Shown one piece after another: positions 5,928 to 56,942 of a stretch of DNA of 64,000 bases. The notes below the pieces were generated by a model that worked only from the letters and a program-made list of their open reading frames with translations, did no database searches and was not told where the DNA came from. The DNA is from Candidatus Mycoplasma mahonii (GTDB taxonomy: Bacteria; Bacillota_I; Bacilli_A; Mycoplasmatales; Metamycoplasmataceae). Within the stretch, counting starts at the first letter, position 1; each line of letters opens with the position of its first letter. A program made the translations under genes and the position numbers. The stretch covers positions 732,769 through 796,768 of the forward strand of contig NZ_CP114583.1 in assembly GCF_030550815.1 (NCBI RefSeq), in the 5' to 3' direction.

Positions 5928-6394
5928 ATGTAAATTATATTACACTCTTTCATAGAATTAGTAAATAAGGTGTTATTTAACTATGTTAACATTGATAAAT
6001 GTTTTTCGTTAAAAAAATGCTATTTAACCATGTTTGTGGTTAAATTAAACTTTATAAAGCGACTGGATTTTCCCATTTTCCCAAAATTGGAAAATAGTGT
6101 TATTTTCTTATTCAAAATATGCATAAATTCCTCAATTTCACGCATTCATAAATCATTTACATCTTCTTTAAATTTATTGATAATTTTTAAAATACTACTT
6201 GTGAATAACTTTACTATATATATCAGTTTTGTATCAAATTTTTTTCTTGATGTTTGAATTTAGTTATTATTTTCCTGATATTTACCATCATAACGTATAA
6301 TATAAAAGTGCTACTTTCTGAGTCTCTATTTACCACGAAACAGATGTATAGTTATATTAAAGTAAGGCCATGACAAATTTTAATACCAAAAATG
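5928..6394. other. Intergenic region with a dispersed repeat relic
   Basis: About 470 nt between the divergent tdk and BtuR-like genes. Besides their two promoters it contains only degenerate AT-rich sequence and the repeat copy at 6093-6160. Read on the minus strand it gives a protein-like stretch (INKFKEDVNDLWMREIEEF) that soon hits stops, so it is probably the tail of a decayed mobile-element or lipoprotein gene. No intact gene is supported. Confidence 0.5.
6093..6160. repeat. Dispersed 68-bp repeat, copy A
   Basis: Aligns without gaps, at roughly 80 percent identity by eye, to 40765-40832. Both copies begin with the same 20 bases up to one C/T difference, and both end in AAATCATTT followed by two bases. 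The second copy lies immediately upstream of an IS30 transposase relic, so the pair probably derives from the same decayed element or gene family. Confidence 0.65.
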
Positions 6395-6406
6395 TATAAT
6401 TTTTAT

Positions 6407-6877
6407 ATGAAACACATATACCGAGGCTTGGGAAAAGGAAAAACTTCATGCTTGAATGAATCAACCATTAGAGCGAAAGAGGCAGATTTAAATGTTGCTA
6501 CTTTTCGTTTTTGAAAAGAGAGAGCAACATCAGAGAATGCTAAACTTGAAAAATTAGATATTCTAATCTTTATGTGTCAAAAATCAAAAAAATTCGTTTT
6601 ACAGATGGAACCACTGGTGAGATTAAAAGAGTTGGATAACACAATGATGTTTCTTAAATTTATCAAAATGAATGTTGATAAGTATGATGTTATTATGTTG
6701 GATGAAATAATAGACCTATATGCTCATAATGTTAATTTTATGACAGAAAATCCACTTGGCAACAAAGAGATTTTGATGCCTGGTCATACAAAACTAGATA
6801 AACTATTTAAAAATGTTGATTTAATTACTGAATTTAAGCCAACAAAGCATTATTTTGAAAAAGAAGTTGGATTATAG
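6407..6877 (+). CDS. Cobalamin adenosyltransferase-like (CobA/BtuR family) P-loop protein
   Basis: 156 residues. The start HIYRGLGKGKTS matches the CobA/CobO/BtuR P-loop, in which the nucleotide loop is GKGKT near residues 9-13. VATFRFWK corresponds to the family's VQFLK block and YDVIMLDEI to its Walker-B-like segment. The family adenosylates corrinoids, yet no B12 pathway gene is visible here, so the true substrate is uncertain. A leaderless promoter fixes the start: TATAAT 6395-6400, six bases, ATG 6407. The last base of its TAG stop is the first base of the GTG of tilS, implying translational coupling. The protein is somewhat shorter than typical BtuR (about 190 aa). Confidence 0.7.
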
Positions 6878-7725
6878 TGTTGTTGTTAGCTGTTAGTGGT
6901 GGTCCAGATTCAATGTTTCTTTTGAATGAATATAAAAAGAAGGGTATTATAGTTGCCCATATTAATTATAATTTGAGAACCACCTCTATGAGGGATGAAA
7001 ATATTGTTAGGAATTTTTGTAAACAACATAATATACATTTCAAATTATTATCTGTCAAATTAAAACCTACTAGAAATACAGAGGCATGGGCAAGAAAAAT
7101 AAGATACGATTTTTTTAACAAAATTTATACTGAATTCAATTGTAATAAATTACTAACTGGACACCATAGGGATGATTTTCTTGAAACGGGATTAATGCAA
7201 CAACGCTCCAATAGGACTCCAAGATACTACGGGATCAAGAAAGTTAGAATGATAGATGGCATGAAGGTTTATAGACCGTTCATTGATTTATATTGAAAAA
7301 ACGAAATTAGCATTGAACTTAAAAAGAAAAAAATCAATTATGGTCTAGATGAAACAAATAATGATTTAAAAATTTTAAGAAATAAGATCAGAAAAGAGAT
7401 TAAAGACTGAACACCAAGAAAGAAAAAAAGTGTTGTTTCATGATTTAAAATATGCAACAAAATACTTAAGAAAAAATTTAAAAAAATTGATAATTGTTAT
7501 GCAAAATGAAAAGAATCAAATTTTTCTATTAAGTTCTTTAACCTCTTAAAAAAATATAAAGAGGAACTAGTTTTTGAGTTAATTCATGATAAATTCAACA
7601 ACGTTCAATTAACAGGAACTAAAATTAATTCTATCATTTCTTTTATTGATGGAATAGAGGGAAACAAAAAGTATAAATTAAAAGATGGGATATATTTGAT
7701 AAAAAGAAATGGTTTTATCTCATAA
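6877..7725 (+). CDS. tilS: tRNA(Ile)-lysidine synthase
   Basis: Converts C34 of the CAU-anticodon tRNA-Ile to lysidine, so that AUA is read as Ile. This is essential in an AT-rich genome heavy in AUA. It has 282 residues, the compact mycoplasma size. The PP-loop SGGPDS (residues 7-12) is intact, followed by AHINYNLR and LTGHHRDDFLET, which carries the HxxDD catalytic segment. TGA-Trp codons occur through the C-terminal half. It starts with GTG at 6877, overlapping by one base the stop of the BtuR-like gene and without its own SD, so it is probably translated by re-initiation. TAA at 7723-7725. Confidence 0.93.
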
Positions 7726-8072
7726 AAAATAACCTTTTAGCAATAAAGTGTAATTATCAAATAGTTCAAACTTGTAGTTATTTAGAATAAAGTGGAATTA
7801 TGATTAATGAATGGCCCTGCAATATATTACTATATTTTTGCATAAAATTGATTATTAAAAAATGATATGGACATAAAACCTATAACAAAAGACTTTTAAT
7901 GATTAATTTGCTAGGTAGACAATCATGAGATCTTTAAATAAATTAATAAACTTTTATAAGTTTATGTATTTCCAATAAAAGATCAAAAAATCAAAAACAT
8001 CACAAAGTCGCAAATAATTTATGTTCTGTACACCAAAAGAAATGGTTTATTTCATAAGATTATTTTTTTCTT
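7726..8072. other. Intergenic AT-rich region
   Basis: About 350 nt between tilS and argS. It contains two diverged copies of a short motif AATAAAGTG(T/G)AATTAT near 7742 and 7787, a run of poly-A/T, and the argS promoter at its right end (TATAAT 8073-8078). No open frame with family resemblance, RNA gene or clear terminator hairpin is visible. Confidence 0.5.
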
Positions 8073-8084
8073 TATAATTTAGGT

Positions 8085-9665
8085 ATGAAAAATAAAATAA
8101 TAGATACTATTCAAAAAGCCGTTAAATCAATTGGTGGAACACAAATTGTTAAATTAACTCCATCAAGAGGACATGGTGATTTTTCAACAAATATTGCAAT
8201 GAAACTTGCAAAAGAATTACATGAAAACCCGATGGAAATCGCAAAAAAAATAGTTGATAACATTGATAAAAATTCTATAAAAAAAGTGGAGATAGCTATT
8301 CCTGGATTTATTAATGTTTTTATAAATTCAAACAGTTTATCAAATGTAGTTGAAGACATAATAAAATCCGGTTCAACATTCGGGAAAGGTAATCAATCAA
8401 AGTTTATAAATATTGAATACGTTTCAGCGAATCCAACGGGGCACTTGCATATTGGTCACGCAAGGGGCGCAGCTGTCGGTGCAACACTTTCTAATATTTT
8501 GATATTTGCCGGGAATACTGTTGATCAAGAATATTATATAAATGATGCCGGTAATCAGATTGAAACACTTGGTATGGCTGTTTATGTTAGATATCAACAA
8601 GAACTTGGTGTTAAAATGGATATGCCAGAAGATACATACAAGGGTTCTGATATCATTGATGTCGCTAAAATATTCATAAAAGACTTTGGTGATAAATTTA
8701 TAAATGTACCTTATGAAGATGTTGGTGATGTTTTTAAAGACAAAGCTAAATCAATATTATTAAGAATGATAAAAGAGCATCTTGGATTAATGGGTGTTAA
8801 ATTTGATATTTATTCATCTGAACAAAGCATGTATAATAATGATTTAATCAACCCTGCATTGGAAAAAATTAAACAACATCTTTATGAACTTGATGGTGCA
8901 ACATGATTAAATACTACTGCCATGGGAGATGACAAAGATAGAGTCCTTATTAAAAGTGATGGTTCATATACTTATTTCACACCAGATATTGCCTATCACA
9001 AAACTAAAATGGATAGGGGATACGATGAGTTAATTGATATTTTAGGTGCTGACCATATTGGATACATAAAACGTATGGAAATCGTAATCGGATATTTAGG
9101 ACTTAAAACTGAAAAATTGGATATATTGACAGTTCAGCTAGTGAGGTTGGTTAGAGATGGTCAAGAATTGAAAATGTCAAAAAGAGCTGGGACATCATTT
9201 ACCATAAAAAAATTAATTAAATTAGTTGGTGTTGATGCTGCAAGATTTCACTTAATTAACAGATCTAATACTTCTACATTTGATTTTGATATTAACCAAG
9301 TAACTAAAAAGTCTAGTGATAACCCAGTGTTCACAATTCAATATACCCACGCCAGAGCAAACCAGGTTTTATCTAAATCAAATAAGAAACCTAAACCTGG
9401 AGAATATCTTGATAAGGAAATAGATTTAATAAACTCCTTAAATAGATTCCCAGAATTAATTATCGATATAGCAAACAATCACAAGGTTCATTTACTTCCA
9501 AAGTATTTAATTGATATTGCAAAGCAATATAATTCTTTATATGCAAGTACAAAGATAATTGATTCGGAAAGAGAAACATCTTTATTAGCTTTAACTATGG
9601 CTCTTCAAATTGTTTTAGCAAATGGATTGAAATTAATTGGGGTTTCTGCTCCAAATAAAATGTAA
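8085..9665 (+). CDS. argS: Arginyl-tRNA synthetase
   Basis: Charges tRNA-Arg; a matching tRNA-Arg(ACG) gene lies 2.4 kb downstream. 526 residues, class I. SANPTGHLHIGH contains the HIGH motif (residues 122-125), preceded by the N-terminal Add-1 domain with HGDFSTNIAMKLAKE. The KMSKS-equivalent is MSKRAGT from residue 364, then the alpha-helical anticodon-binding domain ends in LANGLKLIGVSAPNKM. One TGA-Trp sits before LNTTAMGDDKDRV. The start is fixed by a leaderless promoter: TATAAT 8073-8078, six bases, ATG 8085. Confidence 0.97.
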
Positions 9666-9701
9666 TTAATGACTATTGTCATTTTTTTATATAATACAAC
9701 T

Positions 9702-10523
9702 ATGACAAATTTAAATAAAGATATAAAAGTATTCTTCATAGATCTTGATGGGACATTATTAGATAGTCAAGACAATAATGGTAACTTGACAATTTCAAGG
9801 GAAAACATAAAGGAAATAAAAAAAATACAAGAAGCAAAAAAACATGTTGTTATTTCAACGGGAAGATACGGAGATCAAGTTCAAAAATTTATGAAACTGA
9901 CGAATGTTAAATATTCCGTAACTGCAAATGGCGCTTATGTCATTGACAATAACCGAAAATTATATAAGGATGACAAATTATCCATTAGGCAAATTATATT
10001 ATTGGTAGATTTTGCAAGAAAACATGAACTCAGCTTCAAAGTTAATGAATCATGAATAGCATATGGCGTTAGAAAACCTCTTCAAAAATTTATTGTTAAT
10101 AAGTGAGGTTTCACCGCAATTGGTCATTACAATTGTGACCTACAACGTGAATACCCAAAAATTATCTTTTTTGGTAAAACAAAATGGAAAATTCAAAAAC
10201 TAGTTGCGCTACTTACATCTGAAATTGATGGACTTTCAGTTGTAACATCTGCTAAGGGCTACACAATTGAAGTTACTAATGAAAAATCTACTAAGGGAAT
10301 TGGCAATATATATGTTGCTAAAATGCTAGGCATTACTAAGAAAAACAACATGATGCATATAGGTGATACTATGAATGATTCTACAGTTGCTAGACATATG
10401 AGACTTGTTGCTATGAAAAACTCCGAAAAAAAATTAAAGAAAATAACAAAATTTATTGGCCCCTCCTATAAAAATGGTGGTGTTGCAAAAGTTCTAAGGG
10501 GAGAATATAAAAAAATTACTTAG
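9702..10523 (+). CDS. Cof-type HAD-IIB hydrolase
   Basis: Predicted metal-dependent phosphatase of sugar phosphates, nucleotides or flavins; the substrate cannot be told. 273 residues, typical of Cof/YidA proteins. HAD motif I is FFIDLDGTLLDS (nucleophile Asp), motif II is STGRYGD, and motif IV is GDTMNDS. The cap lies between motifs II and III. TGA-Trp codons lie near nt 10053 and 10104. I place the start at 9702 rather than the in-frame ATG at 9669, because TATAAT (9690-9695) lies between them, exactly six bases before 9702. The 3-prime end overlaps by four bases the convergent membrane-protein gene. Confidence 0.9.
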
Positions 10524-11959
10524 TGACGTATATGGTAAGTTATTTTTTTTGCAATTTTAATAATTAAAAGAGGAGCCAAAGCAAAGATTGGCATAAATAC
10601 AGAAGTTTTCATCAATGAAAATTCTTCTTGATAATTTAATTCTTCAAACAATATATTAGTTATAGGGTTATAAACAATAATTGTTATTATGAGCACAAAT
10701 AAAATTAACAAAATATAGTTTGAAAGTTTCTTTTTCTTTATATATGAATGAATTAAAAATCCTATTAATACAACAATTGATGAATAGTAAATCGTTAATT
10801 GAAACATATATTCGATAAATGAATTGGTGAATCGAGTGTAAACAAATGATTCGTAAATTGTAAAAATACTTGAATCATATGCATTTACAAAGAAAACACT
10901 TATGGCTGCTGAAAAAATTGTTAGAAAGATAATTATTGGTGTGTATATTCTTGTCATTTCAAGAAAAGTATTTATTCTATTCATTAACTTTGCTCTACCA
11001 ATCGAAACCATGAAGACATAAGCAGATATCGTTAGGACAAATATTGTTATAGACAATATTTTCGAATAACCATACAAGGTTAAAGATTCTACGATTAAAA
11101 TCGGAGCAAATAACTGAACTAAAAATAGTGAATTTTTTGGTTTCTTAAGGAATGTATAAGTAATCATTGTTGACAATGCAATCATAAATAACACTGCAAT
11201 TAAACTAGATTGAATAGAGAATATGCCAATAATAGAAAGTCCAAATACCACACCATATCTGCGTCTTGATAAGTTTATTAATCTTACGGCTGATGCGATT
11301 ACAAATAAAATTAAGAAAATACCAAGCATTTCAGATAAGTTTAAGCCAATAGAAAAGAATAAAGTAACAAGCAATGTAGAAACAAATGATGAAATAATTA
11401 TTAAGTAATTTTTCATCCTATAAAATTCACTAATGAAACTAGCCACCGATGCATAACCAATTGATGAAACTAAAATAGGGAAAAATCAATTCGATGAATA
11501 ATCTGTACCTAAAACCAAAAATCTAGTCATTACCATTTTGAATTTATGCCATGTTTCAAAATATTTTGGCGTGATCTCGTTGTGTGTTCCTATTGCCTTC
11601 ACAACTCCGTAGTTATAGATAATCGTTATCAACACTCCGACAAATACAACCATAATAAGCTTCTTGGCTTGTGCGGTTGTCAGTGTTCCTTTTTCTCATT
11701 TAAGACCAAGAATTAAATAGAGAAATGCTTCCTTTATGAAAAAGATAATAATATAATACAACTCGTTATTTATAGTTCATAAAAACGGAATAAAAATAGC
11801 AAATGTAATAATAAAATAAATTATAGAGCCAAGTACAAAAGATGCAAAATCGTTGCCCTTAAAGATATCTTGTGATTTTGAAACATATGACCCAATCAAA
11901 AACATACTAGTAATGATGATTGGTATTATAATAATTGTTAGTAAAGTATTTAAAAGCAC
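10520..11959 (-). CDS. Polytopic membrane protein of unknown function
   Basis: 479 residues read with several TGA-Trp codons; under the standard code it would look like two unrelated ORFs. The sequence is almost entirely hydrophobic segments joined by short basic loops, about 12 to 14 predicted membrane spans, with a basic C-terminus (KIAKKITYHIRH). There is no signal peptide, ATP-binding or obvious transporter signature; the architecture resembles polymerase-like or flippase-like glycan membrane proteins but I cannot assign it. It uses a GTG start at 11959, fixed by TATAAT at 11966-11971 on this strand with six bases between. It converges with the HAD gene and diverges from the tRNA pair. 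Confidence 0.75.
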
Positions 11960-11996
11960 ATATATATTATATATAATAATATGGATGATATATCAT

Positions 11997-12071: not shown

Positions 12072-12082
12072 TTTTTTTTAAT

Positions 12083-12159: not shown

Positions 12160-12180
12160 AATGTTTGAGAAAAAGCCAAC

Positions 12181-12538: not shown

Positions 12539-12550
12539 TAAAATGAGATT

Positions 12551-13816
12551 ATGCTAAACATAAAAGATATAACAAATGATTCAAATAAAATTAAAAGGAA
12601 ATTAAAAACTAGAGGGATCGATACAAAAATCATTGATGATATTATGGTTTTATTAGCTAAAAGATCCAAGCTGATGCCTTTGCTACAAGATTTGGAAAAT
12701 AAAAGAAATATTTTATCTAAGCAAATTGGCTTCAATAAAAGTAAAAATGAACCTGTGGAAAATATTTTGAAAGATGTTGCATTAATTAAACATAGCATCG
12801 AAAGCATTAAGCATGATGAAATTAAGATTAATGAAGATGTTCATGAACTACTGCTTCTAATTCCTAATACACCATCACTTAAAACGCCAATTGGTAATTC
12901 TGAAGAAGATAATGTTTTAATTAAGGAGTATGCAAATTTAGGAAGAGGTAAAGTTATTGATGTTTTACCTCATTATGATATTGCAACAAAACTCGGAATC
13001 ATAGATTTTGAAAGATCCGTAAAAATATCTGGAAAAAGATTTTGGTCATATATGGGTGATGGAGCAAGATTAGCAAGAGCATTGCAAACATTCTTTTTAG
13101 ATGCCCATTCTAATAATGGGTATGTAGAAATAGTTCCTCCGGTAATTGTTTTATCAAAAACATTGGAAGGCACTGGACAGCTTCCTAAATTTAAAGACGA
13201 TTTATTTAAAATAGAAGGAAAGGATAAGTGGTTAATACCTACTGCAGAGGTTCCACTTACTAATTTTTATGCAAATGAAATTTTAGATTTATTATCACCA
13301 ATTAAATTAACAGCTTACACTCCCTGCTTTAGAAATGAGTCTTCATCTGGAAGCAAAGACATAAAGGGGATCATAAGAGGGTTCCAATTTAACAAGGTTG
13401 AGATTGTTAAAATACTTAAAAGTGAACAATTAGAAGAAGAATTTAAAAAAACTCTGAATGATATCAAGAGTTTATTTTCCCAATTAGAACTACCATACCA
13501 AGAGATAGAGTTATGTACTGGAGACCTAGGATTTTCTGCAGAGAGGACAACTGATCTAGAAGTTTGAATTCCGTCAGAAAATAATTATCGTGAAACTTCC
13601 TCGGTTTCGTCATTTGGAGATTTCCAAGGAAGAAGAGCGTCTCTAAAATATATTGATGATAAAGACAAAAAACAAATAGCTTCAACTATTAATGGTTCAG
13701 GATTAGCAATTGACAGAATCATAGCTGCAATTTTAGAAAATTATCAAAATAAAGATGGAACAATCACTATTCCTAATGTGTTGGTTAAATATATGGGTAA
13801 AAATATTATAAAATAA
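12551..13816 (+). CDS. serS: Seryl-tRNA synthetase
   Basis: Charges tRNA-Ser. 421 residues, the usual length. The N-terminal ~110 residues form the antiparallel coiled-coil arm that grips the long variable arm of tRNA-Ser. Class II motif 2 is visible as [21 protein letters not shown], shortened here to its key residues FRNE and RGFQF, and motif 3 as [13 protein letters not shown]. The active-site block [15 protein letters not shown] precedes motif 2. TGA at 13565-13567 is Trp in the motif 2/3 linker. TAAAAT (12539-12544) ends six bases before the ATG, the same leaderless geometry as its neighbours. Confidence 0.96.
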
Positions 13817-17714: not shown

Positions 17715-17786
17715 ACTTCCCCATTTCGTATTGAATTATATCAAAATACTTGTATTAGTATATTCTAAAAATTGTATAATTTAATT

Positions 17787-18452
17787 ATGGAAATGAACAA
17801 AACAAAAATATTAAACTTAATAAAAGAATTTATAGAAATATGTGGAAAAGAAAAAGTTTGATTTTCAGCCGGAAAATCATCAATCTTAGGAATGGTAAGG
17901 CATGGTGGTTTCATTCCTTGAAATAATAAGTTTGAAGTAATAATAAAACCAGATGGTTATAAAAAGTTAATGAGACTATACCCGGATAATATTGTTGACT
18001 CTTCGACTAATAGAAAATATAAAAAACTACAATCAGCATGAGTTAGAAATAATAAAAATATTGATGAGAAACAGCCGTTTATTGAAATTGTCTTGTTGGT
18101 TCCAACAACTTTAAAGAAGATAAAACATTATCGTTCAATAAATTCAATGATATACAACTTCCTAACATTTAGAAGGGACAATATCAAACATGCCATTGAT
18201 GATTTGCACGTCAGGAAACACGAGGGTTTCTTTATTATTAATTCCAGAAGATCAAGTGTTGTAAAATATTGAATACACAATATCACTTTTGAAACAGTTA
18301 ATTTGAAGCTATTAGAAATCCTTATTCCTGTTTTTAAAGAATATAAAACTTTATTAGTAAATTGATATGGTGATGATTACCTACAAACAACCATACCATC
18401 AAAGTATATTGAATATATTTCGCCAACTCGACATGAAAAAGTGATTTTATAA
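17787..18452 (+). CDS. LicD-like nucleotidyltransferase-fold protein with altered metal site
   Basis: 221 residues. The segment KVWFSAGKSSILGMVRHGG followed by FIPWNNKFEV aligns with the LicD signature (GTLLGxxRxxGFIPWDDDxD), where the aspartates bind the catalytic metal. Here they are replaced by NNKFE, so phosphocholine/CDP-choline transfer chemistry is doubtful. The protein may be a pseudoenzyme or use other residues. Four or more TGA-Trp codons. Leaderless promoter: TATAAT 17775-17780, six bases, ATG 17787. Its TAA overlaps the ATG of the S1-domain gene, which in turn overlaps pgi, forming a three-gene coupled unit. The family call is moderately sure; the function is not. Confidence 0.65.
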
Positions 18453-20452: not shown

Positions 20453-20513
20453 AAAAGTCTCAAATGTAAAAGTTAAAAAATTACAATAGTAATTTTTTAT
20501 TTATAATAAAAAT

Positions 20514-21824
20514 ATGTTTGACACTATTGTAGCAATATCATCTGGCTTAATCAACCAACCTATATCAATTATTAGACTTTCTGGTCCTGAAGCTTTTACC
20601 ATGGTCAAGAAAATTTTTAAAGGAAAAATAGGAAAAGACAAAACCATAACATATGGTCATATTGTTGATCATAATGTAGAAGTTGATGAGGTATTGGTAT
20701 CGTGGTTTAAAGCACCAAACACATTCACCGGTGAAGATATTGTAGAAATTAATGCTCATGGTGGGGTTGTTAATTCTAATAATATCCTAAAACTTCTTTT
20801 GATAAATGGTGCCAGAATGGCAGAAAGAGGAGAATTTTCAAGAAGAGCATTCCTTAATGGAAAGATGGATATTATAAAGGCAGAAGCGATTCATGATTTG
20901 ATCTTTGCCAAAACAGATGAGCAAGCAAAGATCTCTGCTTACAAGTTTAAGGGTGAGACATCAGACCTAATCAAAAACTTAAAATTCAAATTATTAACTA
21001 TCATAGCTACATGCGAAACAAATATTGATTATCCTGAATATGATGATGTCGCCATCCTGACCACCAAAGAGTTAATTCCAGCACTAACTGATGTACAAAA
21101 TGATATAGAAAACATACTTGATGTTTCCAAATCATCAAGATATATCTTTGATGGTGTAATGGTGGCCATTGTTGGTAAACCAAATGCGGGTAAATCATCC
21201 TTGTTAAATGCCCTTTTAAATGAAGATAAGGCTATAGTGAGTAATATTCCAGGAACAACCAGAGATGTTGTAGAGGGTTCTATTCAAATCGGTCAAATAT
21301 TATTAAACTTTAAAGACACTGCAGGAATTCACACTACAAATGATTCAGTAGAACAAATGGGGATCAAAAAATCATTAAACCAGATTAAGGACGCAGATTT
21401 AGTTATTCATGTTATTGATCCGATGGTTAATGAAGATCAAGATGACTTAAAAATAAAAAAAGCTTCTAGTATAAAAACATATATTAGAGTACTTAATAAA
21501 TCAGATCTTAAAAAAGAAATGGGCATTTCTATATCGGCAAAGAATGGTAATATTAAGGAATTAATTAATGAAATAAAAAAAGTATTTAAGAAAATCGATA
21601 TTTATGACACAAAGATTATCAATAACACTAGGCAATTATCTTTGATTGAGTCTGCAAATAAGGCGATTAAAAATGCTATTAGTGAATTACAATCAGGTGA
21701 AACACCCGATGTTGTAATCATAGATATACAAAGAGCTTGAGAGGATTTATCAAACATTTTAGGCCGAGCAGAACAAGCAGATTTACTTGATAATATGTTT
21801 TCTCATTTTTGTTTAGGTAAGTAA
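20514..21824 (+). CDS. mnmE: tRNA modification GTPase MnmE
   Basis: With MnmG it makes the cmnm5 modification at U34 of tRNAs decoding purine-ending codons. 436 residues. The N-terminal folate-binding domain starts MFDTIVAISSG and contains NGKMDIIKAEAIHDL. The embedded G domain has G1 GKPNAGKSS, G2 GTTRD, G3 DTAG and G4 NKSD. The C-terminal helical domain ends in the family's FCxGK motif (FCLGK), whose Cys is required for catalysis. TGA-Trp at 21738-21740. Leaderless promoter: TATAAT 20502-20507, six bases, ATG 20514. Confidence 0.97.
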
Positions 21825-21926: not shown

Positions 21927-21933
21927 AGAACAC

Positions 21934-22177: not shown

Positions 22178-22251
22178 AATAATTTTACAAAAAATAATTT
22201 ATGCATTCTAATTTTATGCAGATAAATCGACCTTTTCTTTATAATTTATTT

Positions 22252-22773
22252 ATGAAATTACTTATTGATACCTCATTAAAAACATTATTCATGTCTATTA
22301 TTGATGGTGGTGAAACATTAACCTTCATAAAAGAGATGGTTAAAAAGAAAGCTGACCGGCTACCGGGCGCATTTAGTGAGTTGCTCTTAAAGGCTCGTAT
22401 TAAGACTAAAGACATAAAGGAAATATATGTTACAAATGGGCCGGGGTCTTTCATGGGTGTGCGAACAGCTTTAACATTTGTAAGAACAATCGCCCAAATT
22501 AATGGCACAAAAATTTTTGTTGCTGACACTCTTTCTTTCATAAGTGGTGGGACAAAAGGCACTTATTACATTGATGCAAGATCCGATAAGTCTTATAAAG
22601 GTGTGCTTGATAGCAAAATGTCTATAACATTAATCAGTTTTCGTGATGATTCAGTAGTGGATTACAATGAAATTATCAACAAACCAAACAAGTATCTAGA
22701 TGTTTTTAAGGAAAGAAATGTTCTAGAAGTAAAACCTAATTACATCAAATCACCAAGAATCGGAAGGGAATAA
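22252..22773 (+). CDS. tsaB: tRNA t6A biosynthesis protein TsaB
   Basis: Non-catalytic partner of TsaD in transfer of the threonylcarbamoyl group to A37 of ANN-reading tRNAs. 173 residues, shorter than the E. coli form. MKLLIDTSLKTLFMSII starts the actin-like ATPase fold, and VTNGPGSFMGVRTALTF is the hallmark TsaB segment. The in-frame ATG at 22201 is rejected because TATAAT (22240-22245) lies six bases before 22252. The final TAA overlaps the ATG of tsaD, so the two partner subunits are translated together. Confidence 0.93.
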   Translation: MKLLIDTSLKTLFMSIIDGGETLTFIKEMVKKKADRLPGAFSELLLKARIKTKDIKEIYVTNGPGSFMGVRTALTFVRTIAQINGTKIFVADTLSFISGGTKGTYYIDARSDKSYKGVLDSKMSITLISFRDDSVVDYNEIINKPNKYLDVFKERNVLEVKPNYIKSPRIGRE

Positions 22774-25319: not shown

Positions 25320-25355
25320 TAATTAATTATAAGTAAAAAAAACTCAGATTTAAGT

Positions 25356-26524: not shown

Positions 26525-26545
26525 ATCTATATTTTATCATAATGT

Positions 26546-27379: not shown

Positions 27380-27386
27380 AATGAAA

Positions 27387-28151: not shown

Positions 28152-28175
28152 AAATAAATTATATAAAAAAAGATA

Positions 28176-28853: not shown

Positions 28854-28921
28854 AATGAAATTATACCTTTATTATTAAAAAAAGATATTTTTACCTTTTT
28901 CTAAACGTTATTTTCAGTTTG

Positions 28922-38819: not shown

Positions 38820-38898
38820 ATATGCATTATATATATCATTGGTTGAACAAATGTTAAGAATAATAAATACCGGATTTTAAAAGGTTTATAATCAAATT

Positions 38899-40190: not shown

Positions 40191-40211
40191 TTGAATTGTT
40201 ATAATTTAAAC

Positions 40212-40766
40212 ATGAAATTAATTGTAGGACTTGGTAATCCGGGTGAAAAATATGAAAAAACAAGGCATAACATCGGGTTTAGCGTCATTGATGCCTTTGC
40301 TCATCAAAGCAATTTGAAACTTAAAAAACATAAATTTAATGGTATTTTCTATAAATCTGATGATTTTATATTGGCCAAACCAGAAACATATATCAATCTT
40401 TCTGGCGACTTTGTTTCTGCAATAGTAAAATTTTATAAGATTCAGATTGAAGACATTTTAATAATTTATGATGATATGGATCATAAAGTAGGAACAGCGG
40501 TCATGAAGGGTTCTGGATCTGCTGGAGGACAAAATGGGATGAAGGATATTATTAATAAACTAGGAACCAACCATATCAATAGATTAAAAATAGGAATTGG
40601 TCGAAATGACTCTTCAATCAATCATGTTCTTGGTAAATTTTCCGATGTGCAATGGCAAAAAATTAATACTATTGCTCACCAAATTAGTCAAGCTATAAAT
40701 GATTTTATTGAGTTAGGACCCAGTAAGGCTATGACAAACTTTAACACTTTTTTCAACATCGGATAA
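40212..40766 (+). CDS. pth: Peptidyl-tRNA hydrolase
   Basis: Releases tRNA from prematurely terminated peptidyl-tRNA. 184 residues, full length. MKLIVGLGNPGEKYEKTRHNIGF carries the catalytic His (RHNIG), then LAKPETYINLSG, IYDDMDHKVG (Asp) and GGQNGMKDI. The in-frame ATG at 40191 is rejected: TATAAT at 40200-40205 precedes ATG 40212 by six bases. Confidence 0.95.
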   Translation: MKLIVGLGNPGEKYEKTRHNIGFSVIDAFAHQSNLKLKKHKFNGIFYKSDDFILAKPETYINLSGDFVSAIVKFYKIQIEDILIIYDDMDHKVGTAVMKGSGSAGGQNGMKDIINKLGTNHINRLKIGIGRNDSSINHVLGKFSDVQWQKINTIAHQISQAINDFIELGPSKAMTNFNTFFNIG

Positions 40767-41197: not shown

Positions 41198-41209
41198 TAT
41201 AATTTGTTT

Positions 41210-42865
41210 GTGAAAATTGATGATTTAAAACAAGTTCCAAAAAATCCTGGTGTTTATATTTGAAAGGATAAATTTGATAATGTCCTTTATGTCGGTAAAG
41301 CAAAAAGATTAGATATAAGAATGAAGCAATATTTTAAAGGAATGCTTAATTCTTATAAAACTGCTAAGCTTGTTGATAATATTGCTTCATTTAAATATTT
41401 CATAACAAAAAACGAAAAAGAAGCGTTGATTTTAGAAAGAAACTTAATTAGTAAGTATTCACCTGAATATAATATTAAATTGTCTGATGATAAAAGATAT
41501 CCTTATATAGTCGCTTCTTTAGCATCTAAACTTTCAATAAAATTAGCTTATCGTTTGCCAAAAAGCAAGAGTAAAAATACTATTATTTATGGCCCTTTTC
41601 CAACTGGATTCAGAGCACGAAGGATGGTTAATCTTCTTACACGTTTGACAACATATGAAAATGGGATTCCAAAAGAAAGCAATGATCCCATTTACTGGAA
41701 AAAACAATTTGAATACACTAAAAAATTATTATCATCTGGATCTAAATCTCTATTAAAAACACTTGAAGGCAAAATGACTGAGGCTGCAAACAAGGAACAA
41801 TACGAAGTTGCTCATGATATTCAAGAATCTATTAAAGCACTTGATTTTTACAAGGACACGCAAAATGTTCAATTAACATCTCTTGTTGATACTGATGTCA
41901 TTGGATTTCTTGAAAAAGATGGATATCTATCAATTTCCATGCTTTTTTATCGTCAAGGATTGCTTCTTTCTAAGAAGGAAAGAATTATTGAAATCACTTC
42001 GTCACTAAATGAAAGCACAAGACAATTTGCTTCCCAATATTATGCATACAACTATATGCCTAAGCAAATAATTTCAAATTTTGATTTTGAATCCGAAATT
42101 AATGTTCTCATTCCAATGAAAGGAAGCAAGAAAGAGATTTTAGATCTTGCACTCATTAATGCCAGCAATAATATTGATATAAAACTAAAAGAATTTATTC
42201 GCCATGAAGAATTAACAATGGGTGCAGTTGATAAATTAAAAAAATTACTTAATTTAATAAACCTTCATCATATTATTATGATTGACAATTCAAATACTAA
42301 TAATACTAATCCAGTATCAGCAATTGTCTCCTACAGAAATGGGATTAAACAGAAAAATGAATATAAGAAATACAACTTAGAAATAGGCACACGTCTGGCT
42401 GATGTTGATTATATGAAACAGGGAATAACAAGATACTTTAGTAATGAAAAAAATGCCATTCCCGATCTATTAATTGTAGATGGAGGTAAAGCACAAGTTA
42501 ATGAAATAAAAAAGATATTCACTAATGTTCCTATTATTGGATTGGTTAAAAACAGCCAACATTTAACAGACCATATGATTAACTTAGAAGGTCAAGACAT
42601 TTCTATTGAAGATCAAAATTTATTCAACTTCTTGAAGGGAATACAAATTGAAGTTGATCGGTTTGCCAAATATCACCATAATTTCCGAAGAAGAAAAAGC
42701 ATGGAAGGGATTTTAAAGACCATCCCCGGCATTGGCGATGTTACTGAAAGAAAATTGCTTGAACATTTTAAAACATATTCAGCAATTTACAATTCATCAT
42801 TTGAAGATTTATGCAAAGTGGTTTCAAAAAAAATAGCAAAACTCTTAATTAATAACAAAAATTAG
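41210..42865 (+). CDS. uvrC: UvrABC system protein C
   Basis: Makes both incisions in nucleotide excision repair. 551 residues. The N-terminal GIY-YIG nuclease shows NPGVYIWKDKFDNVLYVGKAK; a UVR helix (MTEAANKEQYEVAHDIQESI) that binds UvrB lies near residue 190. The RNase H-like nuclease carries the LIVDGGKAQVNE metal site, and the C-terminal helix-hairpin-helix is KTIPGIGDVTERKLLEHF. The start is GTG at 41210: TATAAT 41198-41203 is six bases upstream, and the first ATG (41321) would remove the catalytic GIY-YIG segment. Confidence 0.96.
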
Positions 42866-43486: not shown

Positions 43487-46321
43487 TTAGTGCCCAAAAA
43501 TATCTTTTAGATACATGCCAGTAAATGAATCTTTATTCTTAGCAACTTGTTGAGGTGTTCCGGCCGCAACCACTCTCCCACCATTAATTCCCCCACCAGG
43601 TCCTAAGTCGATAATATAATCAGATGTTTTAATGACATCAAGATTATGTTCAATAACTAAAACAGTGTCACCACCATCAACGATTCGATTAAGAACCACT
43701 AGTAATTTTTGAACATCAAATTGATGCAACCCAGTTGTGGGTTCATCTAGAATGTACATCGTTTTACCTGTTGGTTTTTTAAGTAAGAAAGTGGCTAATT
43801 TTACTCTTTGAGCTTCTCCACCAGATAAGGTTGTAGCACTTTGACCAAGTGTGATATAGTTAAGACCAACATCATCCAAAGCTTGAAGTTTAAATTTAAT
43901 TTTTGGTCTATTTTCAAAAAACTTAAGCGCTGTGTGAACTCTCATATTCAAAACATCAGCAATTGATTTATTTTTATATTTAGCCTCAAGTGTTTCTCGG
44001 TTATACCTTTTGCCATCACAATGATCACACATAACATAAACATTAGGTAAAAAGTGCATTTCGATTTTAATAGAACCTCCGCCGCGGCATTTATCACATC
44101 TACCACCATCAACATTAAATGAGAAGCGCCCTCTTTGATATCCTCTTGCTCTTGATAACTGCGTTTGAGTAAAGAGATCTCTAATATCATCAAAGACGCT
44201 TGTATATGTTGCTGGATTAGATCTTGGGGTTCTCCCGATTGGTGATTGCGAAATTTGGATTACCTTATCTATATTTTGCATACCAGTAATATTTTTGTGA
44301 GCACCTGTTTTTAAAAATGGATTAGTGAGTTGCTTTTGTAAAGACTTTCCCAGAATTTCATTTACTAATGAAGATTTTCCTGATCCAGAAACCCCAGTCA
44401 CTGCAATTAATTTTCCTAAAGGAAATTTAACACTAATGTTTTGCAAATTATTTTCTGATGCACCTTTAATTTCAATAACCTTTCCATTACCTGATCTATA
44501 ATTTTTAGGTGTGGAAATAGTATTTCTGCCCGATAGAAAATCACCAGTAATAGAATATTTGTTATCGCTGATTTCTTTCACAGTGCCAGCTGCAACAACT
44601 TCACCACCAGCATCACCAGCTTTGGGACCAATATCAATGATGAAATCAGCTGATCTAATAGTCTCTTCATCGTGCTCAACAATAATCAGTGTATTTCCAA
44701 TTTCTACCATTTTCTTTAATGTTTCAATTAATTTTTTATTGTCTTTTTGATGAAGGCCAATTGATGGTTCGTCCAAAACATACAAAACACCTGTCAGGTT
44801 TGATCCTATTTGAGTAGCAAGTCTTATTCTTTGCGACTCTCCCCCTGAAAGAGTTTCGGCTTTACGATCTAGTGTAAGATATTCAAGCCCAACATTAACC
44901 AAAAATGATAAACGATCAACCACCTCATTAATAATTAATGTTGAAATTTCAACTTCTTCTTTTGAGAGTTTCAGTTTAATAATAAATTCTAAGGCATCTG
45001 TAACAGATAACTGAGTAAATTCATGAATATCAATTTTATTTACTTTGACAGCAAGGGCATGTTCATTTAGACGTTTACCACGGCATACTTTACAAGTAAC
45101 ATCAGACATAAATGTGTCTCTAATTCATTTTCTAATTCTTTCAGAGTTAGAATTTAAATGTCTTCTTTCAATTTTTGTAGCAATACCCTCAATTTTCTCA
45201 GTTTTCTTATACATGTTTCCAGATGAAGTAATCAATTTATAGGTTATATCCTCGGTTGCACCTTCCATAATAATCTTGATTTCTTTTTTTGATAGATATT
45301 CAATCTTTTTATCAAGATTAATATTGTAGTGATCCATCAATATTTTAAATTGTTGTCAGTCAATGTTCTCAGAACCAACTAAATTTTTAAAGAAGACAAT
45401 CCCGCCTTCATTAATAGATAATTCTTCATTAGGCATTAATTTTTCAACATCAACATTTAATTTAACACCTAACCCTTTACAAGCCGTACACATTCCAGCT
45501 GGTGCATTGAAAGAAAATAATCTTGGCTCAATAAGTGGCATATCAAAATCACCATGAGGACATGAGTGATATTTTGAGTAAGAAGATTCTCCAACTCCAA
45601 CTACATTAACAATTATTAATCCTTTTCCATATTCAAGGGCCAACTCAATTGCTTCACTAATTCTTGATCTTTCTTCTTCTTTTAAGATAATTCTATCGAC
45701 AACAATTTCAACATTATGTTTCTTATTTTTGTCCAATTTAATTTCATCTTCTAAAGTCATTAGAGTTCCATTAACTCTGATTCTTAAAAATCCATCACGT
45801 TTTAGTTTTTCAAAAAGATTACTGTGAATTCCTTTTTCGGCTCTAACTATGGGAGCAAGAATAATCAACCTTGCACTTTCCTTATTTTTATAAATAGAAT
45901 TAATAATGTCCTTTGATCTTTGGGCTGATATCTTGATATTATGAACAGGACAAAAAGGGGTACCTATCCTGGCATATAGAAGTCTAATGTAGTCATAAAT
46001 TTCAGTTACGGTCCCCACAGTTGATCTAGGATTATTATGAGTTGTTTTTTGTTCAATGGAAATGGCTGGTGAAAGACCTTCAATAGAATCCACTAGTGGT
46101 TTTTGTGTTCCTCCAAGAAACTGACGAGCATAAGAAGATAAAGAGTCAACGTATCTTCTTCTGCCTTCTTCATAAATGGTGTCAAAAGCAAGTGAAGATT
46201 TACCAGATCCCGAGACACCAGTAAAAACAACCATTTTGTCTTTGGGTATTTTAACATCAATGTTCTTCAGGTTGTTTTCTTTAGCACCTTTAACGATTAT
46301 ATATTTAGTAGTTTCTTTCAT
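43487..46321 (-). CDS. uvrA: UvrABC system protein A
   Basis: Damage-sensing ATPase of nucleotide excision repair. 944 residues. Two ABC modules: Walker [14 protein letters not shown] in the N-terminal half and [14 protein letters not shown] in the C-terminal half, with signatures [16 protein letters not shown] and [15 protein letters not shown]. The central zinc finger is intact ([24 protein letters not shown]). The first zinc module begins CPHGDFDMP where most UvrA have CPxCG, so one ligand is changed. The start is 46321 rather than the upstream in-frame codon at 46345: TATAAT 46328-46333 on this strand is six bases before ATG 46321. Confidence 0.96.
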
Positions 46322-46379
46322 TATGGAATTATAGTATAAATACAAAAATTAATGTAATTAGCAACTCAACATATATGTG

Positions 46380-46916
46380 TTATTTTTTAATTCCAAAAAC
46401 TGACCAAAATGTTTTTGTATCACCATTAGTATCATCCTTTGGCTCTAGTTTTTCTTTTAGTCTTTGGTTTTCATCTTCTAATTCGGAAACTTTAATTCTT
46501 AGATCATCAATAGTTAAGTCTTTCACAACTAGTTCACGTTGCTTTAAAGACATGAAAACCCAAATAAATGTTTTAACAATAAAGAGAACTACAACCGAAA
46601 TAATCATAAGAACAATATTTTTAACTCATTCCCATTTAATATTTAGATTTAAAAATTTACTAATCATAAAGGAGATAAAAATAGTTACCATAAATGACGA
46701 AAGAATAAAAACATAGTGCATCATTCTATATTTGATTTTATTAGTATATAAAATATATATTTCACATGCAAAAGCGATAATGATTAAGACAATTCATGAT
46801 AATAATTTTTCGTCAATATCTAGTCATCCAGGTATAAAGGAAAAAGAAATCGTGAAAAGGGGTGTTATCACAAATCCAAACCATCATTTTCGTAAAATAT
46901 TATCGTTTTTATTCAT
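46380..46916 (-). CDS. Four-span membrane protein with C-terminal coiled coil
   Basis: 178 residues. About four hydrophobic segments occupy residues 10-125 (FGFVITPLFTISFSFIPGW, then WIVLIIIAFACEIYILY, FILSSFMVTIFISFM, IVLMIISVVVLFIV). The last ~45 residues form a charged heptad helix (LTIDDLRIKVSELEDENQRLKEKLE) followed by TFWSVFGIKK. No known family. It sits between uvrA and uvrB on the same strand but has its own leaderless promoter: TATAAT 46923-46928, six bases, ATG 46916. Several TGA-Trp codons. Confidence 0.7.
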
Positions 46917-46996
46917 ATATGTATTATAAGTAGTTTGAGATTATTTTATGTTATTAATTAAGCATGATAAATTTTAAACTTAATAATTTAAAAAAA

Positions 46997-48970
46997 TTAT
47001 AAAATATCACTTTCCAGTTCTAAAATTAAATCCCTTAAATGAGCAGCTCTTTCATAATCCATATCTTTGGATGCTTTTAACATTTGGGTCCTTAAATCAT
47101 CAATAAAGGCCTTTTTGGATTCCTTGTTCAATTTCTCACCATTCATAAATTCCTTCAGACTTCCACGTTTACTGTCAGCATCAATTGATTTTGGAATTGG
47201 CTTGACAATTGTTTGAGGAATAATGGTATGTTTGATATTACTTTTCTCCTGAATATCTCTTCTTCTTTGTGTTTCATCCATTGCCCCCTTCATTGATTTT
47301 GTAATAACATCACCATAGAAGATAACATGACCATCTTTATTTCTAGCAGCCCGACCAATCATTTGAATTAATGATGTTTTTCCCCTCATAAATGATTCTT
47401 TATCAGCATCAAGAATCAAAATTAATGAAACTTCAGGAATATCAATTCCTTCTCTTAATAAATTAATTCCAATAACTGTATCATAAATACCTTTTCTTAA
47501 TTTTCTTAAAATCTCTTCTCTTTCAAATGTTTTATGTTCTGAGTGCATGTACATGACTTTTTCATTTTTTTCTTGCAAAAAACGGGTTAATTCTTCAGCT
47601 GTACGTTTAGTTGTAGTCATAATGAAAGTTCTCTGCTTTTTTTTCTTTTGTTTCTGTAAACGATCATAAATATCTTCTACTTGTCCTTTAATCGGAACCA
47701 CTTCAATAGTGGGATCAAGTAATCCAGTTGGTCGGATGATTTGTGAAACCACGACACCATCAGCTTTATCAACCTCATATGCAGAAGGAGTAGCAGAAAT
47801 ATAGATTTTTTGAAAGCTAAAATCACTTTCAAATTCTTCAAATTTAAGCGGTCTATTATCAAGTGCTGATGGCAATCTAAAGCCGTAATTAACTAGATTT
47901 GATTTCCGAGAAAAATCTCCTTTATACATCGCATGCAACTGAGGAATCATCATGTGTGATTCATCTAAAATCATTAAAGCATCATTTGGCATATAGTCAA
48001 GAATGGTATATGGTCTTTCACCAACTTTTCTACCATCTAAATGTCTAGAATAATTTTCTATTCCGGAAGTAACCCCAAATTCTTTTAGAGATTCAAGATC
48101 GGAATTGGTTCTTTCTTCAAGCCTCTGTGCTTCTAAAAGCTTTCCATTTTCTTTGAAATAAGCTAACCTTGGGATTAACTCTTTTTCGATGTCCACCACA
48201 ACACGATCAATAGTTTCCTTTTTAGTGGTGTAAGCATTAGCTGGAAAAATAGTCATATCTTGATGTTTCCTTAAAACTTCGCCTGTCAAAACATCAACTC
48301 GCATAATTTGTTCAATAACATCACCAAACATATCGATTTTAATGTAATACTCACTTGTTCAACCAGGTGCAAGTTCAATAACATCACCTCTAGCTCTAAA
48401 ATTACCAGGTTCAAGAGTCACATTATTTCTTGAATAATTTCTTTTCACTAATTCAGCAAAGAAATCCTTTCGATCAATTTTCATTCCTACTTCAATGGGG
48501 TAAAATGAAGCTCGATATTCATCTGGAGATAAAGCTCCATAAATGGCCGCTACAGAAGCAACCACAATAGTATCCCTTCTTGTTGAAAGGGCATTAAGTG
48601 ATGACATGCGCATTGATTCTAGATCTCAATTAGATTTTGATGTTTTATCAATAAATGTATCTGATGAAGGCATATAGGCTTCTGGGCGATAATAATCAAA
48701 ATTAGAAATAAAATATTCAACTCTATTTTCCGGAAAGAAACTTTTTAGCTCTGAATAGAGTTGTGCTGCTAATGTTTTATTATGAGAAAGTACAATCACG
48801 GGACGATTCTGATTTTGAATTACATTTGCAATGGTAAATGTTTTACCAGTGGCCGTTGCACCTAAAAGCACCTGGTGAGTGTCCTTGTTATTGATGCCTT
48901 TTATCAACTCTTCTATAGCCTTAGGTTGATCACCTTTTGGGCTAAAACCACTATTTAATTTGAAATTCAT
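46997..48970 (-). CDS. uvrB: UvrABC system protein B
   Basis: Helicase-like DNA-damage verifier. 657 residues. Walker A is [16 protein letters not shown], followed by the beta-hairpin [17 protein letters not shown]; the DEAD-like motif is LMILDESH; motif VI region is [13 protein letters not shown]. The C-terminal UVR domain ([25 protein letters not shown]) interacts with UvrC. Several TGA-Trp codons break the frame under the standard code. Leaderless: TATAAT 48977-48982 on this strand, six bases, ATG 48970; the frame upstream of that ATG is open but unneeded. Confidence 0.96.
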
Positions 48971-49319
48971 AATTAAATTATAGGTTATAAATAAAAATAT
49001 ATCCAGACAATAATTTATACATGGTATTTCTATTAGCATAAATATTTTTGCTAACAAAAGGAATGTAATATTTTAGATAGTTTTAAATGCGTGAGTCACA
49101 CTGGATGGGGTTAAAATCTTGTATGATTCACATGCTATTCTGTTTTTTTAATAATGATTTTTAAGAATTGAATATGCAACATTGTAAAATTATAAGGAAT
49201 ATTACAGATAAACATTTATGGAAAATCTTCAAACAAAAACAACATTTACACTTAAACATGGAAATGAAGAAACATATTATGAATATAAATCATCTATCTT
49301 TTTAATTTGTAATACTGAG
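48971..49319. other. Intergenic region between uvrB and the permease gene
   Basis: About 350 nt. It carries the uvrB promoter. A plus-strand frame at 49219 (MENLQTKTTFTLKHGNEE) is short and ends within the permease 3-prime end; it has no SD or recognisable family. Nothing else is seen. Confidence 0.4.
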
Positions 49320-51072: not shown

Positions 51073-51202
51073 CGATAAAGTTCAAAATAAAATACTATTA
51101 TGTATTTTTGGTGTCTTATCAAAGTAATGCTTTAAAATTTAACTTATTGTCAATTTACAAGTTAATATTTTAATTGCTTTTTATACACGACATAAACTAA
51201 TC

Positions 51203-51613
51203 TTATGCATGCGTTTCTAATATTCATCCATTGCCTCATTGGTCATAAAATTTAGTTAAATATATCCCTTCAGCATATTCATATTTTGTTTTAGGATAAT
51301 CTTCTTTAAAATATTTAGAGTTTTCTAAATTTCTTTGAATTTCATCAAACTGAGTTTCGTTTTCTAACCTCAATATAAAGTCACCGGAATAACCGGTTGC
51401 AGGGTAAGTGTCATTGTGTCTTGCAATCATAATATTTATATCATTCATTAGTTCAAGATATGAATAAGTTCATGTTTTTTCATTTCCATCAACCTCTAAT
51501 TCAGGCTTTAGGAATAATTTTTTTAAAAGCTTTCCTTTAAAAGCTTCGATGTAGGCATTCGATTGTTCTTCAATATTTCCACGTGTTCTTAAATATAATT
51601 TTAATTTTGTCAT
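51203..51613 (-). CDS. PhnB/VOC-like protein
   Basis: 136 residues. The start KLYLRTRGNIEEQSNAYIEAFKG matches the PhnB-like VOC domain (yLxFxGnaeeAlxfYxevFgg), followed by MNDINIMIARHNDTYP for the second strand and ending WGNGWILETHA, which corresponds to the usual DxfGxxWxl block. Function unknown; PhnB-type proteins lack a defined reaction in most bacteria. Leaderless: TATAAT 51620-51625 on this strand, six bases, ATG 51613. The box lies in the 3-prime end of pstB. Confidence 0.75.
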
Positions 51614-51631
51614 ATGATCATTATATTGTAA

Positions 51632-55598: not shown

Positions 55599-55956
55599 GT
55601 TCACCTCTCCATGGTTATGATACAAAATTGTTTAAATGTAAATTATTATTGTTTGTTAATTAAAATTAATAAAAATTAACGGAAATAAGAAACAAAATAG
55701 TTGATGGTAGAATATAAGCCCCAAACAATTTTATAATTCATCTTGTCTTTAAATTATCCTAAAAATATAATTCATCATCTCTTGAAAGTTCAAAGGTTTA
55801 TAATACTTACAAATAGCAAGATTTCTTTTGAAGATAATTCATCACTCTTTAATAATGGTTCTTCAAGTGCAAAATTTAAATATTGCGTTAAGAGTTGATC
55901 ATGAATTTATAATTACTTAATAATTATTTTCCTATTCTTAATGAATTCAAATATAT
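55599..55956. other. Intergenic region upstream of pstS
   Basis: About 360 nt of AT-rich sequence carrying the pst leader and promoter. No Pho box or other operator can be recognised by eye, and no gene is supported. Confidence 0.4.
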
Positions 55957-56402
55957 CTAAAACGATTTCTTTTGTTTTTTTTGATTTCAAAATGTCATTT
56001 CATGTATCTCATCCAACGTAAACCATTTTATTTCTAGTGCTTCTTCATCGTCAATTATAAATTTGTCATTTTCATTTAATTCACATACAAATGTAATAGT
56101 AAATGCATTTACAAGATAGTTTGTTTGTATATTTAATTTGGAAATTTGAATAAATGCTTGCAAATTCAAGGTTATCTGCTTTCAAACTAGATTCTTCAAA
56201 TAACTCTTTTTTTTGCAATATCAATTATATCTTCACCAATGTTCATACCGCCACCAAATGTGCCTCATGTGTTTGTGTCTGATCTTAAGTTGAAGCATTT
56301 ATTATCCATATATGGAATAATTGTTGCAGAAGGCACCATAATTAAATCATGGGATTTAATTTTATCTCTCATGTACATGACATAATCTTGATTGTTTTTC
56401 AT
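55957..56402 (-). pseudogene. Nudix hydrolase, frameshifted
   Basis: The N-terminal frame from 56402 reads to FGGGMNIGEDIIDIAKK, the first half of the Nudix box, then breaks in a run of eight As near 56206-56213. One frame over, ELFEESSLKADNL completes GX5EX7(R/K)EUXEE. A further shift is needed before LVNAFTITFVCELNEND and ALEIKWFTLDEI, the canonical Nudix end. TATAAT 56409-56414 with six-base spacing to ATG 56402 is still intact. At least two frameshifts suggest a pseudogene rather than a sequencing slip, though the A-run alone could be phase-variable. Confidence 0.75.
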
Positions 56403-56624
56403 AAATTAATTATAAGTTAATTGCTTTAATTATTAGTTCAATTAATGCCAAGGTATACTAATAATAAAATATAGAAGAACTCTAAAAATTGCTAGCGAGA
56501 CTAAAAAGGAAGATATTTGATTTTAATTATCGGTATTTGTTATGTTATGTCTGCAAATTAAGAGTAAAATGAATTTTATTCAAAAGTTTAATATATTCAT
56601 ATATATTTTAAGTATAATCATTAT

Positions 56625-56942
56625 ATGAATAATGTTGAAGATTTAAATCTATCATTCCAGTTTGAAGTCGTTGATTTTAAACGAAGAATCCTAGACATTA
56701 AAGTGCTATCTGTTAAAAAAGATATTATGAAAAATAACATCAATAAAATCTTTGAATGATTCATGGAAGATTTGATATTTTTTATAGAAAAATCTGGTTT
56801 TCAGAAGAGGTGAGATTTTGGAACTATTTTGCTTGGTGGAATAAATAATTTAGAGTTTGAAGAAGAAAAACGGGAAAATTTCACAAATATGTTCAAGTTA
56901 ATTACAAATTGGGATATGGTGGTTAAAAATGAAAATAATTAG
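56625..56942 (+). CDS. Hypothetical 105-aa protein coupled to lplA
   Basis: 105 residues, mixed charged and aromatic, no signal peptide or membrane span; two TGA-Trp codons (in IFEWFMED and KRWDFG). No family recognised. It has a leaderless promoter (TATAAT 56613-56618, six bases, ATG 56625), and its last 14 bases overlap the start of lplA in another frame, so it opens the lplA-hydrolase unit. Confidence 0.65.

Follow-up and report, generated by a model that had tools for sequence, protein, structure and literature searches.

A strict six-base spacing between -10 box and start codon suggests leaderless genes in Candidatus Mycoplasma mahonii and some of its relatives

Introduction

Leaderless genes have already been described in mycoplasmas. 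According to Zheng 2011 (PMC3160421), TA-led (leaderless) genes average 18.3% in five Mycoplasma genomes, with information-processing genes over-represented, and inheritance of the signal was reported for Actinobacteria. In Mycoplasma pneumoniae, 16% of the transcripts have a 5' untranslated region (UTR) of at most 8 nt and are translated as well as leadered ones (PMC10568206). As for mapped promoters, 6 nt is given as the commonest spacer between box and transcription start in Mycoplasma gallisepticum, Acholeplasma laidlawii and Spiroplasma melliferum (PMC4245973, PMC5138195), and 6 or 7 nt in Mesoplasma florum (PMC7745072). Here, we analysed the gene starts of a 64,000-nucleotide stretch of Candidatus Mycoplasma mahonii (the window, i.e. 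the last 64 kb, positions 732769-796768, of a genome of 796,768 bases in one contig), in which an initial annotation had noted 24 start codons lying exactly six bases after a TATAAT-type box and had proposed that their messages are leaderless.

Results

Box and spacing in the window

The window was translated with TGA as tryptophan, and 48 genes were called in it with a simple codon-score caller. The box is defined as TATAAT or TAAAAT (TAWAAT) and the spacer k as the number of bases between box and start codon. All 24 starts of the initial annotation proved correctly placed, each ATG or GTG having TATAAT (22) or TAAAAT (2) at exactly six bases: 20 are TATAAT-N6-ATG, two TAAAAT-N6-ATG (12551 and 26524) and two TATAAT-N6-GTG (11959 and 41210). 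Twenty-two fall within called genes, while those at 56402 (71 codons) and 56625 (105 codons) open uncalled frames.

The count against shuffles and other spacings that had been proposed as a check gave a clear peak at six. Exact TATAAT-N6-ATG occurs 21 times in the window, vs. a mean of 3.0 and a maximum of 8 in 100 dinucleotide shuffles, and vs. a mean of 2.3 across the 39 other spacings when k was scanned from 0 to 39. The 21st match, at 49182, was absent from the earlier list and opens a frame of only 15 codons. Among frames of at least 80 codons, 19 of the 21 matches at k=6 were retained, with at most one at any other spacing from 0 to 23. Concerning TTG, codons placed at k=6 opened 80 codons in 1/3 and 2/15 cases, no more than with other spacers. 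Once a single mismatch is tolerated, the count in the window no longer exceeds chance (77 vs. 69.7, 26 of the 100 shuffles being as high), and the signal therefore resides in the exact box.

Starts in such AT-rich DNA (30.7% G+C) might carry TATAAT at six as a translational or compositional feature of an unstructured start region and not as a promoter, the more so as AT-rich upstream sequences are known to aid starts that lack a Shine-Dalgarno (SD) site (PMC5397173). We consider this very improbable: the shuffles, which keep the dinucleotides, yield 3 matches and not 21, other AT-rich hexamers have no comparable peak at k=6, the boxes also precede divergent genes (15 of the 53 starts having a neighbour), and the purine at base 7 described below is found at the boxes of leadered genes as well.

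Whole genome and hotspot

At the gene level, every in-frame ATG or GTG between the upstream stop and a point 60 bases beyond the called start was checked for a preceding box, the identical rule being applied to every spacer. In the window, k=6 is found in 22 of the 48 genes (46%), and any other spacer from 0 to 40 in at most two. In twenty 15-kb stretches sampled elsewhere in the same genome (300 kb, 210 genes), k=6 is found in 32 genes (15%), and any other spacer in at most eight. Together these are the 54 own leaderless starts used below, compared with five genes at k=7 and one at k=8, spacers 7 to 11 being at background.

Over the whole genome, the exact pattern occurs 140 times, vs. 13 for the reversed pattern. 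Since the reversed control gives too low a background for patterns bearing ATG (155 matches at k=7-11 vs. 81 reversed), neighbouring spacings were used instead, and the 140 matches stand against those 155 at k=7-11 together, i.e. 31 per spacing. The six-base arrangement thus recurs outside the window, and the window itself is a hotspot, about three times denser in such genes than the sample (Fisher p = 1.5e-5); the excess persists among genes with orthologues (15/27 vs. 21/103). The rule that the initial annotation had taken as uniform over most promoters holds for the window but not for the genome sample: with 22/48 vs. 32/210, its reader had met an unusually dense stretch. This density, together with the chance level of the one-mismatch pattern, is what could be said for chance, or for a hotspot misread as a rule. 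That explanation is scarcely conceivable, the peak at six recurring outside the window and in three relatives (G075, G068 and G067); chance is refuted for the exact box, and only the claim of density comes down to a hotspot effect.

Absence of Shine-Dalgarno sites and presence of a second class

The statement that these starts have no SD at the normal spacing was true in substance. Twenty-two of the 24 have no SD match of at least four bases at -20 to -4, and in the remaining two (38899 and 28853) an AAAGG precedes the box, at too great a distance from the start. By comparison, 395 of 2766 random ATGs have a match of four bases in the same interval. The anti-SD is intact, the 3' end of the 16S rRNA having the complement of AAAGGAGGTGATCC, and an SD match of at least four bases with no box is found in 18 of the 48 window genes and 100 of 209 sampled genes. 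A full-length ribosomal protein S1 was not found with the rpsA model in this assembly, which is 95% complete (three partial matches, the best at 44.2 bits for a cut-off of 577). The SD-led class named in the initial annotation was recovered for metK, guaC, gyrB, ftsH, a csp-like gene and a permease; pdhA has no SD by the measure used here.

Evidence for transcription starting on the codon

The base preceding the 54 own leaderless starts is T in 37, C in 10, A in 7 and G in none, i.e. a pyrimidine in 47 of 54, vs. 98 of 198 other called starts. In nine relatives, the corresponding values are 75/87 and 506/1070. Of the 140 exact matches of the whole genome, 123 have a pyrimidine at -1, as do 1740 of 1971 in 16 hand-picked enriched genomes; in the 60 genomes of family f7, the count is 1073 of 2175. 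Position -2 is unbiased (pyrimidine in 27/54), and at k=7 starts of the relatives the expected -1 pyrimidine is only mild (29/43). The start codons themselves are ATG in 49 and GTG in five, only these two having been allowed in the tally. T-rich DNA is found at -20 to -16.

The boxes of leadered genes, defined as those at least 16 bases before the start, offer an internal comparison. Base 7 after these boxes is a purine in 26/36 own cases and 129/172 in the relatives, which would place start sites generally six bases after the box in these genomes, while base 6 is a pyrimidine in only 21/36 and 94/172, respectively. The pyrimidine before the start is therefore far stricter where the start is the codon than it is in front of leadered genes; a 5' end obliged to fall on the codon would be expected to have this effect. 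The base-7 purine and the strict -1 pyrimidine agree with the published mapped spacers of other mollicutes. Spacing, -1 pyrimidine, +1 purine, base 7 and published spacers all support the earlier proposal that the messages would begin on the codon.

Conservation among relatives

By reciprocal best matching, 257 own genes and 1213 genes of the nine relatives were linked into 270 pairs. A box at spacing 6-8 is present in the relative in 29 of the 74 pairs with a leaderless own gene, vs. 14 of the 196 other pairs (odds 8.4, p = 1.8e-9), and one at exactly six in 19/74 vs. 10/196. As orthologue pairs are non-independent, labels were also shuffled over genes, and none of 20000 permutations reached 29. 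When both genes are promoter-proximal, the contrast is 17/36 vs. 9/69 (p = 2.4e-4). The putative leaderless state is gene-specific and kept orthologue by orthologue.

Five genes were then surveyed in 30 chosen genomes of the order. A box at 6-8 precedes uvrB in 13/29, mnmE in 12/30, lepA in 6/30, metK in 0/26 and gyrB in 3/27 (two of 29 gyrB loci were dropped as too near a contig end), vs. 0, 1, 2, 0 and 1, respectively, at control spacers 12-14. The SD column of this survey overstates SDs, the best SD before any in-frame start having been taken. The mode also switches between species, with uvrB in G067 and mnmE in G075 being SD-led. A side observation concerns lepA, in which a -10-type box lies 6-12 bases before the ATG in most of the 30 genomes, even those with no genome-wide peak at six.

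A count over 320 genomes of the order gave strong enrichment of the exact pattern in the genus of the window, in the neighbouring genus codes g2, g3 and g9, and in several genomes of the distant g42 (family f8), with values near background in family f7. The ratio of k=6 to the mean of k=7-11 reaches 4.5 and 8.6 in the two genomes of the own genus; it ranges over 2.6-4.5 in g2, g3 and g9 and over 2.6-3.5 in three genomes of g42, vs. 0.6-1.2 in g5, g6, g7, g8, g10 and g14. Mapped onto a tree of 31 genomes built from four proteins, a ratio cut of 2.5 needs at least six changes, or five without G101. That genome, with 139 matches, was rejected as a strongly enriched lineage and kept out of the lineage argument, its gene-level count being just 10/196. 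Its matches in the sample come largely from repeated genes whose starts are identical (10, 7 and 5 of them in 280 kb) and have the leaderless box; the 12-base promoter seems to be supplied by the multicopy and perhaps mobile family itself. Among genomes G213-G222 and G305-G309, TATAAT-N6-ATG is nearly absent in g37 and g38 even compared with the reversed control, and in g47 the forward count is exceeded 5- to 20-fold by this control.

The strictness of the spacing varies by lineage. Gene-level counts at k=6 are 20/188 in G075, 17/112 in G068 and 8/52 in G067, where the spacing is as strict as in the own genome, while it is broad over 6-10 in G070, G137 and G019. The latter genomes, in which spacers 6, 7, 8, 9 and 10 are all frequent, fit another explanation, namely that the promoters are real but the transcripts start one to several bases off the codon, or other promoters dominate, six being only the commonest tolerated spacing for short leaders. 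In the same direction, 14 of the 22 lepA loci marked other have, by eye, a box 9-12 bases from the ATG, which would give leaders of about 3-6 nt, and with the 6/30 boxes at 6-8 the lepA leaders would be 0-6 nt in most of the family. The SD lying inside the frame at 38819 (see below) is also as this explanation would have it. For the own genome we hold it to be decidedly unlikely, since spacers 7-11 are at background there and nearly all of its leaderless-type starts have a pyrimidine at -1.

Two initiation modes and gene function

Recognised leaderless genes of the window include uvrA, uvrB, uvrC, argS, serS, mnmE and tsaB, as well as ksgA, rsmG, tatD, prs, tdk and pth. Of the 32 leaderless genes outside the window, 30 were scanned for family matches and 21 matched at 1e-25, among them dnaE, dnaX, holB, mnmA, truB, rlmD and rnhC, together with lepA, ysxC, whiA, dam, galU and plsY. 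For comparison, 20 genes were drawn at random from 68 longer SD genes. Six are of an abundant kind (EF-G, S4, RpoA, GAPDH, ArcA and a P68 lipoprotein), vs. none recognised among the 30 scanned leaderless genes. A split of the two modes by function, as the initial annotation had suggested, is thus a tendency: the SD draw also holds pheT, thiI, ruvA and dnaI, which are not of the abundant kind, the same gene switches mode between species, and codon adaptation does not divide the classes (see the Discussion).

Among 38 leaderless genes with a same-strand upstream neighbour, one overlaps it, eight lie within 30 bases, 11 at 31-100 and 18 further away, while of 79 SD genes 33 overlap the neighbour and 13 lie within 30 bases.

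Window starts, one by one

Each start is given with its gene and its unit, which is TATAAT-N6-ATG unless stated. On the plus strand, the first three genes code for a CobA/CobO/BtuR-family protein (6407-6877, unit 6395..6409), argS (8085-9665, unit 8073..8087) and a Cof-type HAD hydrolase (9702-10523, unit 9690..9704). The box of the latter lies within a longer frame (9669-10523), and its best matches in two relatives start near own residue 15 and are themselves near-leaderless. The serS gene (12551-13816, unit 12539..12553) has TAAAAT-N6-ATG; upstream of it (12515-12553), a perfect AAGGAGG about 33 bases away is followed by ATG TAA, the -10 box and its own ATG, and this AAGGAGG is probably there by chance. 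Further along come a LicD-like protein (17787-18452, unit 17775..17789), mnmE (20514-21824, unit 20502..20516), tsaB (22252-22773, unit 22240..22254), a YaaA-family protein (38899-39474, unit 38887..38901), pth (40212-40766, unit 40200..40214) and uvrC (41210-42865, unit 41198..41212, TATAAT-N6-GTG). The last plus-strand start is that of the unnamed, uncalled 105-codon frame (56625-56942, unit 56613..56627), which directly precedes the gene of a lipoate-protein ligase (56929-57918).

On the minus strand, the series begins with tdk (thymidine kinase, 5355-5927, unit 5925..5939), an unnamed 479-aa protein (10520-11959, unit 11957..11971, TATAAT-N6-GTG) and a MATE-type transporter (23928-25319, unit 25317..25331). 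Four consecutive genes follow, each with its own box: in the order of reading, rsmG (28176-28853, unit 28851..28865), tatD (27387-28151, unit 28149..28163), ksgA (26546-27379, unit 27377..27391) and prs (25565-26524, unit 26522..26536, TAAAAT-N6-ATG), with 24, 7 and 21 bases between neighbours. The TATAAT box of ksgA (27386-27391) includes the stop codon (TAA) of tatD, so that a single hexamer would both end one gene and set the message start of the next. The remaining minus-strand genes are those of a short TldD/PmbA C-terminal protein (38460-38819, unit 38817..38831), uvrA (43487-46321, unit 46319..46333), an unnamed 178-aa protein (46380-46916, unit 46914..46928), uvrB (46997-48970, unit 48968..48982) and an unnamed 136-aa protein (51203-51613, unit 51611..51625), and finally the uncalled 71-codon frame (56187-56402, unit 56400..56414).

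Discussion

Very probably, these genes give leaderless mRNAs from a sigma-70-type -10 box six bases upstream, a 5'-terminal AUG being accepted in place of an SD. The box exactly six bases before the start codon would act as the promoter, and RNA polymerase would likely take the A (or G) of that codon as the first base of the transcript. The pyrimidine at -1 may keep the polymerase from starting one base early, and the ribosome is predicted to accept the resulting message by its terminal AUG and not by an SD site.

Several observations weigh against this reading. In M. gallisepticum, only nine leaderless transcripts are reported, with a 5' UTR peak near 15 nt (PMC4245973). The logo of the 54 own starts has no clear -35 element, and TG before the box is found in 6/54 vs. 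about 3 expected, so that an extended -10 was rejected. The start at 38819 is ambiguous: an AAGGAG and an in-frame ATG (38801) lie 18 nt downstream (38801-38831, minus strand), which could be two starts on one message or equally an 18-nt leader with an SD. Among the orthologue pairs, control spacers 10-12 lean the same way (6/74 vs. 8/196). A dipyrimidine before starts is reported in other phyla (PMC3160421), and the -1 pyrimidine could be a translational preference, yet -2 is unbiased here. Finally, codon adaptation, based on nine reference genes, does not separate leaderless from SD genes (p = 0.20), and expression level was discarded as the divider. The 5' folding energy does not differ either (mean -1.47 for leaderless vs. 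-1.76 kcal/mol for SD genes, p = 0.16), and the idea of less 5' structure in leaderless mRNAs was rejected.

A further-reaching and rather doubtful proposal is that the choices of transcription and translation start are fused in this clade, box and -1 pyrimidine pinning the 5' end to the AUG, with conserved maintenance genes, namely those for DNA repair and replication, for tRNA and rRNA modification and for some tRNA synthetases, leaderless across genera and abundant proteins SD-led. If so, such genes would form a regulon without a regulator, whose output could shift as a block with the state of the ribosome (70S, initiation-factor balance), and some lineages would need a 5' end exact to the base while sisters tolerate leaders of 0-6 nt.

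Leaderless genes are often regarded as leftovers. Here, individual genes keep the putative state from genus to genus, and lineages vary in the precision that box placement requires, so that a single order provides a natural series of strict, relaxed and absent cases in which to ask which change in ribosome or polymerase makes an exact 5'-AUG necessary. Gene finders tuned to SDs will misplace such starts, and the 12-base upstream unit is close to the shortest expression signal for a gene.

As predicted from sequence, the mechanism is of the known bacterial leaderless kind, already reported in mycoplasmas. Added here are the strictness of the spacing, the -1 rule and the orthologue conservation; a limited literature search, with sources accessible in part, found no report for mollicutes of the strict-six lineage pattern, the -1 rule or conservation among orthologues. 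Like the TA-led genes of Zheng 2011 (PMC3160421), the present ones lack an SD and have a -10-like box some 12 bp upstream of the start codon. They differ in that the box is exactly TAWAAT at exactly six in the own and sister lineages, related genera being looser, in that the -1 pyrimidine was measured, and in that one stretch reaches 46% of its genes; set beside the functional classes given there, tRNA and rRNA modification and aminoacyl-tRNA synthetases are represented among the leaderless genes found here. As for M. pneumoniae (PMC10568206), it has no ribosomal protein S1, and no full-length one was found here; the figures for that species come from measured transcripts, and an SD precedes only 8.1% of its genes, while SDs are common here. 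The promoters of M. gallisepticum, A. laidlawii and S. melliferum share the TAWAAT box, the 6-nt spacer and the purine start, and those of M. gallisepticum also the weak -35 (PMC4245973, PMC5138195); the difference is the small number of leaderless transcripts mapped in M. gallisepticum (PMC4245973). In Mesoplasma florum (PMC7745072), some start sites likewise coincide with the initial base of a start codon, and nine genes are expressed from such sites alone, but this is a handful of genes, vs. 15-46% here.

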